A program made the translations under genes and the position numbers. Below, piece by piece: positions 7,015-54,377 of a stretch of DNA of 61,435 nt. Origin of the DNA: Candidatus Yanofskyibacteriota bacterium (GTDB taxonomy: Bacteria > Patescibacteriota > Minisyncoccia > 2-02-FULL-40-12 > IGHO2-01-FULL-4-A). Location: NCBI GenBank assembly GCA_903897805.1, contig CAIUCV010000021.1, forward strand, positions 1 to 61,435, read 5' to 3'. Positions within the stretch are counted from its first letter, which is position 1; the number at the start of each line of letters is the position of its first letter. Below the pieces are notes generated by a model. The model made no database searches. It saw only the letters and a list, made by a program, of their open reading frames with translations, and was not told where the DNA came from.

Positions 7015-7617
7015 ATGCCAATGGAAATTCCTACAATACCGGGTCTTACAAATCAGCCCCAGATAAAATATGGGGCTGATTTGAGCCCTTTGCTTGCCCA
7101 ATCCTACGATGCCATCGCTAAATATTTTCAGAGCCCCGGGTTTTTTAATCTGTTCGGGACCGTCAAGACGGTTTTGATGCTTTTATCAATTATTTTTGCG
7201 GTGATATTGGTGATAATAATAATTAAAATGGGCAATTTGATTAAGGAGGAAGTAACTGAACTGAAAGCGGAGCTGGCGCTGCCCGGAGAAGCGGTCGGTG
7301 CTTCCGACAATCGCTGGCAGGAGATTAAAAGCCACGTCAATTCGTTCAAGGAATCAGAGTGGAAATTTGCCGTCATTGAGGCGGACAAGCTGGTTGACGA
7401 TGTTTTAAAATCCGCCGGCTTTGCCGGCGAGTCAATGGGGGAGCGCCTGATGATCATAAAACCGGACCAGCTTATAAATCTGCAATATCTTTGGGATGCC
7501 CACAAATTTCGCAATCTCTTGGTTCACGACGTTAATTACCAGATGACTCACCGTCAGGCGATTTGGGCCATTGAGGCGTTTGAGAGCGTCTTGCGCGAAT
7601 TGGAAGCGCTCTCGTAG
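7015..7617 (+). CDS. Single-pass membrane protein of unknown function
   Basis: 200 residues. The first 45 are soluble and Pro/Gln-rich (MPMEIPTIPGLTNQPQIKYG), then one strongly hydrophobic segment (VLMLLSIIFAVILVIIIIKM, about residues 53-72), then a 125-residue helical domain with WKFAVIEADKLVDDVLKSAG, FRNLLVHD and AIWAIEAFESVLREL. The C-terminal part resembles HEPN-like or DUF4145-like helical folds only in general appearance; I do not assign a function. It starts 14 bp after the palindromic element and ends convergently with the ncRNA candidate at 7671-8015. Confidence 0.75.
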   Translation: MPMEIPTIPGLTNQPQIKYGADLSPLLAQSYDAIAKYFQSPGFFNLFGTVKTVLMLLSIIFAVILVIIIIKMGNLIKEEVTELKAELALPGEAVGASDNRWQEIKSHVNSFKESEWKFAVIEADKLVDDVLKSAGFAGESMGERLMIIKPDQLINLQYLWDAHKFRNLLVHDVNYQMTHRQAIWAIEAFESVLRELEALS

Positions 7618-7670
7618 GTAAACAAAAAACAGCCGTAAGCCGCTTGGTTGATAACTGAAGGAGGATTTTG

Positions 7671-8015
7671 AAAAATAAAAATCCCGGGGGAGTGGGAACC
7701 ACAACTGCGGCCACTCTACCCGGGGGTGCTGATTTTCATCCGGGATCGCACCTTCATCCCGAATATACCTGACTATCGCATCGAAGCCCGCCAGGAAGAC
7801 TCCGATAAACTTTATACGAACTTTTTTGCCCTGAACTTGTCGAAGGGCTAGCCCTAATTTCTTACTTGTTCCGGCAACTAAGGTCGGACTGTGGGCGGGG
7901 TTCGTAATCTTGTGAAAAGAGCGGGCCGAGAGGAGAAGGGCGCCTCATCCGGTCAGGCCTAGCCACCACAGGCATAGCCAGCCCCTTACCTCGGATGTCC
8001 CTTTCCTCTCAGCCT
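7671..8015 (-). ncRNA. Candidate structured ncRNA 1 (about 345 nt)
   Basis: A complete transcription unit without a plausible ORF: promoter TTGACA-N18-TATACT at 8051-8022 and a GC-rich terminator hairpin (CCCCCGGGTAGAGTGG ... CCACTCCCCCGGG) followed by ATTTTTATTTTT at 7682-7671. The 5' domain begins ACAGGCTGAGAGGA and is closed by TCCTCTCGGCC about 90 nt later, then GCTCTTTTCAC. The candidate at 52942-53267 shares the 5' ACAGGCT...AGAGGA motif, the long closing stem and the CGGCC-GCTCTTT junction. I found no RNase P, tmRNA, SRP or 6S signature. Function unknown. Confidence 0.65.
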
Positions 8016-8021
8016 GTATCC

Positions 8022-8051
8022 AGTATAGCATAGTGCTTATATGTTTGTCAA
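8022..8051 (-). promoter_or_regulatory. Promoter of ncRNA candidate 1
   Basis: Minus-strand TTGACA (8051-8046), 18-bp spacer, TATACT (8027-8022). Same layout and spacing as the promoters at 29127-29156 and 53274-53303. Confidence 0.85.
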
Positions 8052-8175: not shown

Positions 8176-8362
8176 GCAACCCGCCTGATTTTTCTGACTC
8201 TATCTGCCGACTAGCAAATTGACGAGTTGAGCGTATATTGTTCCGTATGAAATATGCGGGTCGCGAAGCAGGAATGGATAACCGCATATTTCCAGGAACA
8301 ATAGCTCAACGAGGATAATTTGCAGAAAGGCATGATACCGGAAGAAAAATCAGGGGGGTTGC
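8176..8362. repeat. Long imperfect palindrome upstream of comEC
   Basis: 187 bp. The left arm begins GCAACCCGCCTGATTTTTCT; the right arm ends AGAAAAATCAGGGGGGTTGC. Inner arms include GAACAATA(TAC)GCTCAAC and CCGCATATTT pairings. Arms match over most of their length with small bulges. The right arm runs to 12 bp before the comEC ATG. An apparent 68-codon minus-strand ORF here is a by-product of the palindrome. Confidence 0.85.
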
Positions 8363-16958: not shown

Positions 16959-17426
16959 ATGCGCAAACCACTAAAGAAAAAAAATATAGTTGAGCCGGAT
17001 TTTAAATATTCATCGCCGCTGGTGGCCGTTTTTATCAACAAGATAATGAAGGAGGGGAAGAAAAGCGTTGCCGAAAGAATTGTCTATCACGCCCTGGAAA
17101 GGGCCGAAAAGGAATTGGGCAAACCGGCGCTGGAGGCGCTTGATACGGCAATAAATAATGCCGGTCCCCAGCTGGAATTAAAATCCCGCCGCATCGGCGG
17201 AGCCAATTATCAGATTCCCTATGAGGTGAAGGGCGAGCGAAAAATAGCTCTCGCGATGAGATGGATAATTGATGCGGCAAGAAGCGGGAAGGGCAAACCG
17301 ATGGAGGAAAAATTGGCGCAAGAAATCGTAAATGCCTGCAACAATACCGGGGCGGCGATTAAAAAGAAGACGGATACCCACAAGATGGCCGAAGCAAACA
17401 AGGCATTTGCACACTTTGCTTGGTAA
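16959..17426 (+). CDS. rpsG: 30S ribosomal protein S7
   Basis: 155 residues, standard uS7, which nucleates the 30S head and binds near the E site. Motifs: KIMKEGKKSVAERIVYHAL, SRRIGGANYQIPYEV, KIALAMRWIIDAAR and the C-terminal HKMAEANKAFAHFAW. It starts 14 bp after rpsL. The stop is at once followed by a 215-bp palindromic element that separates it from the next genes; fusA lies 650 bp on. Confidence 0.98.
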   Translation: MRKPLKKKNIVEPDFKYSSPLVAVFINKIMKEGKKSVAERIVYHALERAEKELGKPALEALDTAINNAGPQLELKSRRIGGANYQIPYEVKGERKIALAMRWIIDAARSGKGKPMEEKLAQEIVNACNNTGAAIKKKTDTHKMAEANKAFAHFAW

Positions 17427-17640
17427 AAACCGAGGTATTGCCAATTTTTTCTTATGTTCTCTGCGCAGACAAATGTTATTCAAATTTTCTTATTTTCTGT
17501 GATAAAAAATCGTACCCCTTCCGTCCCTCGCTACGCTCGGGACTACGTCCCAATTTTTTATCAGAAGGAAAATATCAAAAATTTGAATACATTTGTAACT
17601 GCTCGTTCAGAAAAGAAAAAATTGGCAATACCTCGGTTTT
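17426..17640. repeat. Long palindromic element, family B copy 1
   Basis: 215 bp. The outer stem AAAACCGAGGTATTGCCAAT pairs with ATTGGCAATACCTCGGTTTT; a second stem follows after a bulge (left GCGCAGACAAATG, right CATTTGTAACTGCTC). The terminal region ATCGTACCCCTTCCGTCCC .. GGGACTACGTCCCAATTT is nearly identical to that at 52718-52927, where the stems have other sequences. No ORF. Confidence 0.85.
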
Positions 17641-17932: not shown

Positions 17933-17962
17933 ATTATATCATATTTTATTAACCCTTGTCAA
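17933..17962 (-). promoter_or_regulatory. Promoter of the small membrane protein gene
   Basis: Minus-strand TTGACA (17962-17957), 18-bp spacer, TATAAT (17938-17933). Confidence 0.85.
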
Positions 17963-27758: not shown

Positions 27759-28737
27759 TTTTGTGTACGACATAATCACAATCGGTTCAGCAACTCGCGA
27801 TGTCCTTTTGGAGGCCGAAGGTTTTGAATTGCGCAAGCACGCGGATTCTCCCACTGGTGTGGAACAGTGTTTCCCCCTCGGTTCAAAAATTGAGATAAAA
27901 AAAATCGTTTTCACCACCGGCGGAGGAGGAACGAACGCGGCGGTAACATTTGGCAGGCAGGAATTTAAGACCGCATGTGTCGGAGTGATCGGCAGTGACA
28001 TAGCAGGCGAGGAAATTACTGAGGAATTAAAAAAGGAGGGAGTAGAGCCGTTATTTCAAAAACACAATGATGATTTTACCGCTTACTCAATTATTTTGGT
28101 ACATCCCAATGCCGAACGCACCATTTTAAGCTATAAAGGTGAAGGCCAGCATTTTGACGTAAACAGAGTGCCCTTCAATAAGCTCAAGGCCAAGTGGTTT
28201 TATATTGATTCCCTCGGAGGGCATTACGATCTATTTGAAGCCCTGGTCAACCATGCGGTTGAGAACGGGACAAAAATTGCTTTTAACCCCGGGGGGAAAG
28301 AGTTGGCGTTTGGACCGGACAAGCTCGGGCCGTTATTAAAGCATATTGATATTTTTGCCGCCAATAAAGAAGAGGCCGCCGAACTGGTCGGCATGAAATC
28401 GGAGGAGCAGGAAGAAACATTAAAAAAACTAGCCGAGATTTGCGGCGGGATTGTGGTTCTGACCGATGCTCACAATGGGGTTCAGGTTTTGGCTGATTCG
28501 GTTTTGTATTCGGCGGGCGTGCCAGATTCTCCGGTTGTTGAACGCACCGGGGCGGGGGACGCTTTTAATTCCGGGTTTGTTTGCGAATATATTAGAAGCG
28601 ATGATATAAAAAAAGCAATCCAGTTTGCGACGGCAAATGCGTCGTCGGTAGTGACGAAGTGGGGGGCGAAGGCCGGTATATTAAAAAAAGAGGATTGGGG
28701 CCCTTGGCCGTTGGTTGAAGTTGAGGAACGTAGGTGA
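27751..28737 (+). CDS. PfkB family carbohydrate kinase
   Basis: 328 residues starting at GTG 27751 (another GTG lies 12 bases on). N-terminal DIITIGSATRDVLLEAEGF, GGGGTNAAVTFGR, and the C-terminal signature VERTGAGDAFNSGFVCEY with the catalytic Asp. Family members phosphorylate ribose, fructose, adenosine and related substrates. Placed after RpiB and rpe, a sugar or pentose kinase feeding that pathway is a reasonable inference. It is the last gene of the run; the convergent ncRNA candidate 2 ends 50 bp downstream. Confidence 0.9.
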   Translation: MVNFVYDIITIGSATRDVLLEAEGFELRKHADSPTGVEQCFPLGSKIEIKKIVFTTGGGGTNAAVTFGRQEFKTACVGVIGSDIAGEEITEELKKEGVEPLFQKHNDDFTAYSIILVHPNAERTILSYKGEGQHFDVNRVPFNKLKAKWFYIDSLGGHYDLFEALVNHAVENGTKIAFNPGGKELAFGPDKLGPLLKHIDIFAANKEEAAELVGMKSEEQEETLKKLAEICGGIVVLTDAHNGVQVLADSVLYSAGVPDSPVVERTGAGDAFNSGFVCEYIRSDDIKKAIQFATANASSVVTKWGAKAGILKKEDWGPWPLVEVEERR

Positions 28738-28785
28738 CGAAATACTGAAGCCGCCAGGTTGAATGTATTGAAAAATTTTGAAAAA

Positions 28786-29120
28786 CAAAAAAAGGACCCC
28801 GGGGGAGATGGCAACGCCGTGCATGATGCACGCTCGCTGCGCGCCGTCTCCGGCCGGGGTATGCAGGTCCTCATCCTCTTCGTAACCTGGCCGTCTTTCA
28901 CAGCCGTCACAGTGACGGGGGACAAGACGGACTACGGGGAAATTCCGCCGGGCCGTTTCGAATCAGCCCCGACGTAGGCTAGGTTGCCGATCCCGCAATC
29001 GGCGTGGCGCCCGCCCCACGTGACACGTGATGGGGGCTGGACCCTACCTAGGAGGAGTTCCTTGCTGGAAACGATGGGTTGTTATCACTTCCACCAAGTA
29101 ACCCCTCCTATTCCTAACCA
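28786..29120 (-). ncRNA. Candidate structured ncRNA 2 (about 335 nt)
   Basis: Promoter TTGACA-N18-TACACT (29156-29127) and a long terminator hairpin (GGACC..ACCCCGG / CCGGGGT..GGTCC, about 28794-28870) with TTTTTTTG. No ORF with a start site. The 5' domain begins GGAATAGGAGGGGTT and closes with AACTCCTCCTA. Many strong internal stems (CCCGTCACTGTGACGG). The promoter resembles that of candidate 3 (GGCTTGACAATGCCTAG in both), but the body is more divergent. Identity unknown. Confidence 0.6.
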
Positions 29121-29126
29121 AATTCA

Positions 29127-29156
29127 AGTGTAGCAAAATGGTCTAGGCATTGTCAA
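29127..29156 (-). promoter_or_regulatory. Promoter of ncRNA candidate 2
   Basis: Minus-strand TTGACA (29156-29151), 18-bp spacer, TACACT (29132-29127). Confidence 0.85.
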
Positions 29157-29217: not shown

Positions 29218-29375
29218 AAGTAAAAACCCCTCCCCGTTGATCCTTTCAGCTTCTATGCCTTGCGGTGCCTTGCGGCTCCGCGTAGCTCCACTTACTCGGG
29301 CGAGGAGGGGGTACTGCTGCGCTGGATACGGCCACCCAGAAACTACTCCGCATCCTCCTATAGGTTATCAAAGCC
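29218..29375 (-). ncRNA. Possible small ncRNA (about 150 nt)
   Basis: The minus strand has TTGACA (29391-29386) with a weak TAACCT 18 bp on, a hairpin GGATGCGG..CCGTATCC, and a terminator-like end where CCCCTCC and GGAGGGG pair before TTTTTACTTTT (about 29218-29230). The promoter -35 overlaps the start codon region of the divergent gene at 29393. Size would suit an SRP-type RNA but the conserved SRP tetraloop motif is not seen. Confidence 0.35.
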
Positions 29376-29392
29376 GCTCATACTTTGTCAAT

Positions 29393-41968: not shown

Positions 41969-42052
41969 TGGGCGCGGAGGGATTTGAACCCTCAAGAGAT
42001 TGCTCTCATACGCTCCTGAAGCGTACGCGTATGCCAGTTCCGCCACGCGCCC
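41969..42052 (-). tRNA. tRNA-Leu (anticodon CAG)
   Basis: 84 nt. Acceptor GGGCGCG / CGCGCCC, anticodon stem TACGC / GCGTA with loop TTCAGGA, long variable arm, T-arm GAGGG-TTCAAAT-CCCTC, discriminator A. CCA not encoded (ACC follows). Confidence 0.95.
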
Positions 42053-52717: not shown

Positions 52718-52927
52718 AGCTTTGCCAATCTCTGATTTCCTTTCAGCATTTCGCAGGCAAATAATATTCTGATTTTCTCATTTTTCTGGATGAAAAAATC
52801 GTACCCCTTCCGTCCCTCGACAAGCTCGGGACTACGTCCCAATTTTGTTCATCAGCGAAAAATTTCGAAAATCATCATTTATTTGCACTGCTCTATTTGA
52901 ATGACGGAAATCAGAAATTGGCTCCGC
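52718..52927. repeat. Long palindromic element, family B copy 2
   Basis: 210 bp. Outer stem GCCAATCTCTGATTTCC / GGAAATCAGAAATTGGC; bulges CGCAGGCAAATAA (left) and TTATTTGCACTGCTC region (right); terminal region TCGTACCCCTTCCGTCCCTC .. GCTCGGGACTACGTCCCAAT, as in 17426-17640. Stem sequences differ from copy 1 on both arms. Confidence 0.85.
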
Positions 52928-52941
52928 TACGTAAAATTAAA

Positions 52942-53267
52942 AATAAAAAAGCCGGGGTTACGTCACAACGTCCCGGCTACGAGCTGCAAAGATCCCCGCC
53001 TTTACTGCGCGAGGCCCACTAGAGAGGCCACCTAAGTGGACTGTCTACTTGGGAGTCATGTCCCGGGCTGCCGTCGCAGTCCTGACTCATCCATGCAACC
53101 TGGCCATGATTGCGTATATAAAACGGTATAATTAGTAAAGAGCCGGCCGGAGGAGGAGTGGGGTAAGGTGGGCATGAGCCGAATCCCCGCCCGCATCCGA
53201 AGGAAAGGAGCACGTTCTGGCCTGCAGTTCCTCGCGATGGTCGAGCCCCCAGTTCCTCCTCTAGCCT
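52942..53267 (-). ncRNA. Candidate structured ncRNA 3 (about 326 nt)
   Basis: Promoter TTGACA-N18-TATACT (53303-53274); terminator AGCCGGGACGTTGTGACG..CCCCGGCT with TTTTTTATTTTT (52977-52942). No ORF with a start site. The 5' domain ACAGGCTAGAGGAGGAA..TGGGG is closed by CCCCACTCCTCCTCCGGCC, then GGCTCTTTAC..ATTATACC, all resembling candidate 1 (7671-8015), so the two appear homologous with a compensatory change in the closing stem. Function unknown. Confidence 0.65.
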
Positions 53268-53273
53268 GTTTTA

Positions 53274-53303
53274 AGTATAGCATAATCGGCTAGGCATTGT
53301 CAA
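53274..53303 (-). promoter_or_regulatory. Promoter of ncRNA candidate 3
   Basis: Minus-strand TTGACA (53303-53298), 18-bp spacer, TATACT (53279-53274). Confidence 0.85.
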
Positions 53304-54290: not shown

Positions 54291-54377
54291 GGAAGGGTGC
54301 AGGAGTGGTTTAACTGGCGGTCCTGGAAAGACCGTGTGCCAGAAATGGTACCGCGAGTTCGAATCTCGCCCCTTCCG
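54291..54377 (+). tRNA. tRNA-Ser (anticodon GGA)
   Basis: 87 nt. Acceptor GGAAGGG / CCCTTCC, anticodon stem CGGTC / GACCG with loop CTGGAAA, long variable arm (GCC..GGT), T-arm GCGAG-TTCGAAT-CTCGC, discriminator G. Confidence 0.95.

Follow-up and report, generated by a model that had tools for sequence, protein, structure and literature searches.

What would be transcribed from three minus-strand stretches of DNA that carry a strong promoter and a terminator and hold no evident gene? The question arises from the 61,435-nt window analyzed here (the whole stretch of DNA under study), which is contig 21 of a 622-kb genome that is 90% complete (host genome G000). A preliminary description of the three stretches, termed here units A, B, and C, had suggested that they may belong to an RNA family not yet described, of which each genome has several copies. 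The near-consensus promoters with an identical 18-bp spacer that it reported were read directly in all three units (Table 1), the GC-rich terminators were correct for each of them, and the stated body length of 326 to 345 nt corresponds to 345, 326, and 335 nt for A, B, and C, respectively. Its statement that the units contain no ORF was nearly right: a TTG frame of 147 codons (28482–28925), antisense to the pfkB-type kinase gene, begins inside C, and another of 90 codons (7432–7704) begins inside A. Neither frame looks like a gene.

Table 1. Positions of the three units and of their parts in the window.
Feature	Position	Strand	Description
Promoter of unit A	8022–8051	−	TTGACA-18-TATACT, TG before −10
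Unit A	7671–8015	−	345 nt, inferred start at ACAGGCT; domain-II member of G000
Unit A, 5′ domain	7924–8014	−	P1 stem GGCTGAGAGGA / TCCTCTCGGCC, hypervariable interior
Unit A, boxA-like element	7911–7922	−	GCTCTTTTCACA
Unit A, region matched by covariance model R1	7810–7923	−	boxA-like element and conserved domain II (P2–P4)
Unit A, intrinsic terminator	7671–7724	−	CCCGGG...CCCGGG-ATTTTTATTTTT
Promoter of unit B	53274–53303	−	TTGACA-18-TATACT, TG before −10
Unit B	52942–53267	−	326 nt, without domain II; flanked by CTP synthase and M48 peptidase genes
Unit B, 5′ domain	53145–53266	−	P1 stem GGCTAGAGGAGGA / TCCTCCTCCGGCC
Unit B, boxA-like element	53133–53143	−	GCTCTTTACTA, 10/11 to consensus
Unit B, terminator	52942–52977	−	GCCGGGACGTTGTGACGTAACCCCGGC-TTTTTTATT, 90% identity to terminator of unit D (another genus)
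Promoter of unit C	29127–29156	−	TTGACA-18-TACACT, TG before −10
Unit C	28786–29120	−	335 nt; 5′ stem GGTTAGG/CCTAGCC; without boxA-like element and domain II
Unit C, terminator	28786–28859	−	

The promoter pattern TTGACAN{15,20}TGNTA was matched six times in the window, compared with 0.39 ± 0.63 matches expected from shuffled sequences, and the tRNA at 41969–42052 is preceded by the same promoter type as the units. The G + C contents of A, B, and C are 54, 58, and 61%, respectively, against 46% for the window, and that of C equals the richest 335-nt stretch of the window. All three units fold more stably than shuffled sequences, A (z = −2.7) and B (z = −2.4) moderately so, and C reached z = −4.4. 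The same promoter class also leads protein genes (L014, L018, L020, L022, L024, L027, L028, and L029) and precedes a small ORF at ~17,940 in the window, as would be expected if the units were leaders or messages of small proteins. This explanation is extremely improbable, since no frame is common to the units, they terminate before any gene, and they show compensatory changes together with length differences that are not in threes.

As reported earlier, A and B share the 5′ start ACAGGCT and the junction GGCC-GCTCTTT. The long stem (P1) that was said to close them does differ in sequence and still pair, but it closes only a 5′ domain, the first 80–140 nt of a unit (~90–125 nt in A and B), and not the whole RNA. 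Unit C, which had been called less alike, has the promoter and a 5′ stem in common with A and B but lacks GCTCTTT and any recognizable common body, and sequence alignment of C with the other units revealed none. The place of C in the family is given by its promoter, its 5′ stem, and its position among the genes, not by its sequence.

The search for copies in related genomes that the preliminary description had recommended returned homologous units in all five genomes examined of two related genera (g1 and g3), i.e., in 5 of the 8 genomes of the taxonomic family. The pattern of promoter, spacer, and AGGCT was matched in four of these eight genomes, with no match in the reversed control, and a looser promoter pattern (CTTGACAN{15,20}TGCTANNNT) was matched at 18 sites in five of them, in two genera only, again with none in the control. 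BlastN analysis with B gave, in another genus of the same taxonomic family, only a 40-base terminator match; the locus of this match, L003, proved on reading to be a complete unit with a promoter, an AGGCT start, a pairing stem, and a terminator that is nearly that of B. L008 (genome G002) and L038, a contig carrying the label Candidatus Yanofskybacteria, have the same sequence, which indicates where the host belongs; BlastN analysis with L008 found further copies in G005, G006, and G007. Eight P1-type units were compiled by reading the pattern and BlastN matches, namely A, B, D (L003), E (L007), F (L008), G (L009), H (L043), and I (L060). All eight end in a terminator, and the intrinsic terminators are in part conserved across units and genera.

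Two pattern matches at the order level were not accepted as members of the family: on reading, L010 turned out to be a promoter that serves a protein gene, and L011 a short transcript that precedes typA and has a hairpin and a T run at its end. A wider set of 121 sites with promoter and AGGCT consisted mostly of chance matches in viral contigs, and the three sites that passed a strict test for P1 and CTCTTT were all family units. Likewise, the more than 120 chance matches to the promoter pattern in viral contigs included none with P1 and CTCTTT or with domain II (described below).

The sequence of P1 differs in every copy, and its pairing is kept. When the duplex energies of all units were summed, the units' own strands gave −181.4 kcal/mol, whereas exchange of the 3′ strands between units gave −116.8 ± 11.8 kcal/mol, and only 1 of 20,000 permutations was as low as the own-strand energy, which indicates that P1 is kept by compensation. 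Similarity between copies is near background in P1 (Z 0.6–4.7 relative to shuffles), and its interior cannot be aligned between units, positional orthologues included. In unit I, the minimum-energy fold of this interior is a cloverleaf; the 5′ domain scores 24.1 with the Rfam tRNA model, compared with a gathering score of 29, and ARAGORN makes no tRNA call.

Domain II of unit A is formed by the helices P2 (CGAAC/GTTCG), P3, and P4, the last two with compensatory changes, and contains the conserved strands CCTTNNTTGC and CAAGTAAGNNATT. A covariance model, R1, comprises the boxA-like element and domain II. It found exactly one copy (84–124 bits) in each of G000, G002, G005, G006, and G007 and no match in the other 378 genomes searched from the class, including three of the same taxonomic family. 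In five sequences compared, 94.5% of the domain II pair cells hold standard pairs, compared with 26–49% in slid controls, and three pairs are changed on both sides; the count of further pair types was not above that of shuffles. Identity between copies is 75–85% (Z 6–17 relative to shuffles). A search for the domain-II motif in 84,980 species and in viral contigs returned, beyond the Yanofskybacteria genome identical to G002, only coding-like chance matches without flanking pairing. The proposal of an undescribed family present in several copies per genome is borne out by the homologues in relatives, the kept pairing, and the R1 domain in five of five genomes.

Because the P1 interior and the tails do not align, covariance modeling was confined to the boxA-like element and domain II. 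The tails are variable; those of D and F have a further apparently covarying region in common, seen by eye only, the pairing of which an automatic consensus fold did not recover. In composition, the units are modular and unequal, the core domain being present in A and absent from B and C, so that a function common to all of them is at most possible. Sequence comparison establishes the family together with its promoters, terminators, conserved pairing, distribution, and exchange of loci, as a real, new, and lineage-specific structured RNA family, which as far as searched is that of two related genera of one Yanofskybacteria-type Parcubacteria family. The literature searched on structured RNAs of CPR bacteria and Parcubacteria contained nothing relevant.

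Known RNAs were compared with the units by Rfam analysis, which the preliminary description had named as a check. None of the 4227 models matched a unit above its gathering score, A, B, and C included, and permissive scans (E up to 10 for the window and up to 5 for the loci) gave chance matches only. The absence of the hallmarks of RNase P RNA, tmRNA, SRP RNA, and 6S RNA, noted earlier from the letters, agrees with this result: the models of RNase P RNA, SRP RNA, and 6S RNA did not match at the units, and a divergent tmRNA was rejected, the only strong RF00023 match in G000 lying outside the units at C5:49451–49805. A highly diverged housekeeping RNA of one of these four kinds, missed by Rfam, could be expected to have a single copy per genome, as domain II has, a length of 340–530 nt, and a strong stable-RNA promoter. 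We nevertheless regard it as very unlikely, because a tmRNA is found elsewhere in 8 of the 8 genomes (116–145 bits), the permissive scans were without a match, and the absence of domain II from the 378 other members of the class, even from the three of the same taxonomic family, is unlike a universal RNA. The units resemble tmRNA in length and in the tRNA-like part of one copy (L060), but this part already closes inside the first 90 nt, without a 3′ tRNA half or a tag frame, and each genome has its canonical tmRNA elsewhere. They resemble 6S RNA in a long irregular 5′ hairpin and strong expression signals; in contrast to it, they are multi-domain, do not form a rod with a central bubble that is closed by both ends, and match no Rfam model.

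The genomic positions of the units were compared between genomes. In G002, G005, G006, and G007, the domain-II RNA adjoins the same uncharacterized gene (~420–480 aa), and a pfkB-type kinase gene lies on its other side in G002, G005, and G007, the stretch of G006 ending before that point. In G000, unit C occupies this kinase-gene site; the domain-II RNA, unit A, lies between comEC and a 200-aa gene. At the comEC site of G005, where the neighbor is 70% identical, there is a short unit, L058, that has no domain II. With C at the relatives' domain-II position and A at comEC, the units have exchanged places; the sites are old and their contents change. Long imperfect palindromes adjoin several units (8200–8300, 52723–52923, and 17426–17640 in the window, and downstream of the L008 and L009 units), and an element, GAACAATATACGCTCAACTCG, that lies upstream of A recurs with small changes on the other strand downstream of the L008 and L009 terminators. 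Such palindromic repeats could be the mediators of exchange between loci.

All three window units are directed against the upstream gene and away from the downstream gene, and the positions beside comEC and the kinase gene are conserved. The units might thus act in cis, as insulators or as antisense or divergent regulatory transcripts for their neighbors, with an RNA body that has no role in trans. This we consider unlikely, given that domain II is found at comEC in G000 but at the kinase-gene site in the other four genomes, and that neither a compensated P1 nor a conserved domain II is necessary for a cis role.

The same swapping of units between two loci, their multiple copies, the hypervariable 5′ half beside a conserved part, and the tRNA-like 5′ domain of L060 would also be expected of ornate RNAs of selfish or phage origin, similar to GOLLD and ROOL, that are exchanged between genomic sites. 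The units share with GOLLD and ROOL a large structured RNA with conserved and variable halves and an association with tRNA, but they are 330–530 nt long, chromosomal, and lineage-restricted. A homo-oligomeric RNA cage is a feature of GOLLD and ROOL. No match to the GOLLD, ROOL, or OLE models was obtained even in the permissive scans, and no relative was found among 50,697 phage records. The matches to the domain-II motif in viral contigs were coding-like and due to chance, and the units occupy conserved positions flanked by ordinary chromosomal genes, with no phage genes in the flanks read. A selfish or phage origin is therefore doubtful.

BoxA is the NusB/S10 antitermination site of rRNA operons. 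The sequence GCTCTTT, which stands directly 3′ of P1 in six of the eight units, resembles rrn boxA, and NusB is encoded in 8 of the 8 genomes of the taxonomic family. Seven of the eight units agree at 9–11 of 11 positions with the gamma-proteobacterial (E. coli-type) consensus GYTCTTTAANA (PMC5725501) if one T may be skipped, as several of them need; unit H agrees at 11 and unit D at 7 of the 11 positions. By itself, GCTCTTT is frequent in the window (20 sites vs. 12 expected). The rRNA leaders of these genomes contain no GCTCTTT and have a hairpin followed by a GGACATTAAAAATTAAATA-like sequence, so that the boxA identity of the units rests on a consensus from other bacteria. In the rRNA leaders at L085 (1201–1450, G000) and in the 16S leaders L090 and L093, a strong hairpin lies directly before the GGACATTAAAAATTAAATA-like sequence, which is perhaps the lineage's own rrn boxA.

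Among known systems, the leaders of rRNA operons (boxB hairpin, then boxA) and of other boxA-bearing transcripts such as suhB are like the units in having a strong promoter, a hairpin near the start, and after it a boxA-like sequence (GCTCTTTnaACA in the units) that precedes a stable untranslated RNA, in hosts that encode NusB. They differ in that no rRNA follows in the units, that the host's own rRNA leaders have another sequence after the hairpin, and that boxA is putative here. The boxA reading would fit a long RNA that is not translated and would otherwise be exposed to Rho.

We favor, with moderate confidence, the reading that each unit is a gene transcribed on its own into a stable, structured, and untranslated rRNA-like (boxA-bearing) RNA that acts in trans; the production signals and structure of these RNAs are well supported. 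Transcription would proceed from the strong extended −10 promoter and start at or next to (A)GGCT. The P1 hairpin would fold first, its sequence and interior being free to change as long as pairing is kept, and most units would then expose the boxA-like GCTCTTTtaACA. NusB and ribosomal protein S10 may bind this element (GCTCTTTTAACA in the RNA) as they do on rRNA, and would render RNA polymerase antiterminating, so that the long untranslated RNA could be finished without Rho-dependent termination. This putative antitermination step is moderately supported. The body would follow, with its end at the intrinsic terminator. Domain II, of which each genome has one copy (A here) and in which P2–P4 present CCTTNNTTGC and CAAGTAAGNNATT, is probably the working part and would bind a partner in trans.

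A more far-reaching reading, to which we give little credence at present, is that of a new class of large RNA. Its genes would be like miniature rRNA operons, with a stable-RNA promoter, a hairpin, boxA-type antitermination, and a structured body; the RNA would combine a conserved core with a hypervariable 5′ domain able to hold tRNA-like cargo; and units that exchange between fixed chromosomal sites would provide a multi-domain scaffold or an RNA-only assembly in very small genomes. To our knowledge, the genomes of Parcubacteria are tiny, and very few RNAs particular to these bacteria have been described. Several long structured RNA genes with rRNA-like signals in a genome of 0.6–0.9 Mb would point to an important RNA function, and, if the favored reading is true, boxA-type antitermination would be extended to RNAs that are neither ribosomal nor CRISPR RNAs. 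It may be asked what drives a change as rapid as that seen in the hypervariable P1 and in units that move between fixed sites.

The sequence TGATCTTTTTCAATTGAATA, which resembles a Firmicutes-style boxA (a lead only), occurs in the leaders of several protein genes that have the promoter class of the units. A conserved leader, GATGCTGGGGAGCCATAAAAGCCCCGGCAGGTTGATCTTTTTCAATTGAATAAGGAGG, was observed before unrelated protein genes at L018, L020, L024, L027, and L029 (~1501–1610, matched strand); it has a hairpin, and a boxA-like TGATCTTTTTCAA stands immediately ahead of the ribosome-binding site. A second kind of apparently non-coding unit with this promoter class was seen at L013 (1087–1580), L017 (30–670), and L019 (1501–2040), with the common hairpin AGCAAAAAGTCCCGAAAATA..AGTTCTTTTCAT..TTTCGGGACTGTTTGCTGG. 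The one at L017 is preceded by a tRNA-like sequence (T-arm GGCGGTTCGAATCCGTC) in which the D-loop region carries a large insertion.

Further features were observed in the window itself. A tRNA gene at 54291–54376 (plus strand) scored 49.7 bits with the tRNA model in a shorter scan; in the whole-window scan it was not listed at the gathering threshold, and a sub-threshold tRNA-Sec match of 37.4 bits ranked first in the clan. Immediately upstream of unit C, another promoter (TTGACAAAGTATGAGCGGCTTTGATA) may give a short transcript (29224–29391, minus strand) with a GC-rich inverted repeat and then a T run at ~29224, the fold of which is no better than that of shuffles. At 17937–17962 (minus strand), a consensus TTGACA-18-TATAAT promoter is associated with the small ORF ATGCTGTTTTGGATC... 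at ~17,940, apparently an ordinary short message.
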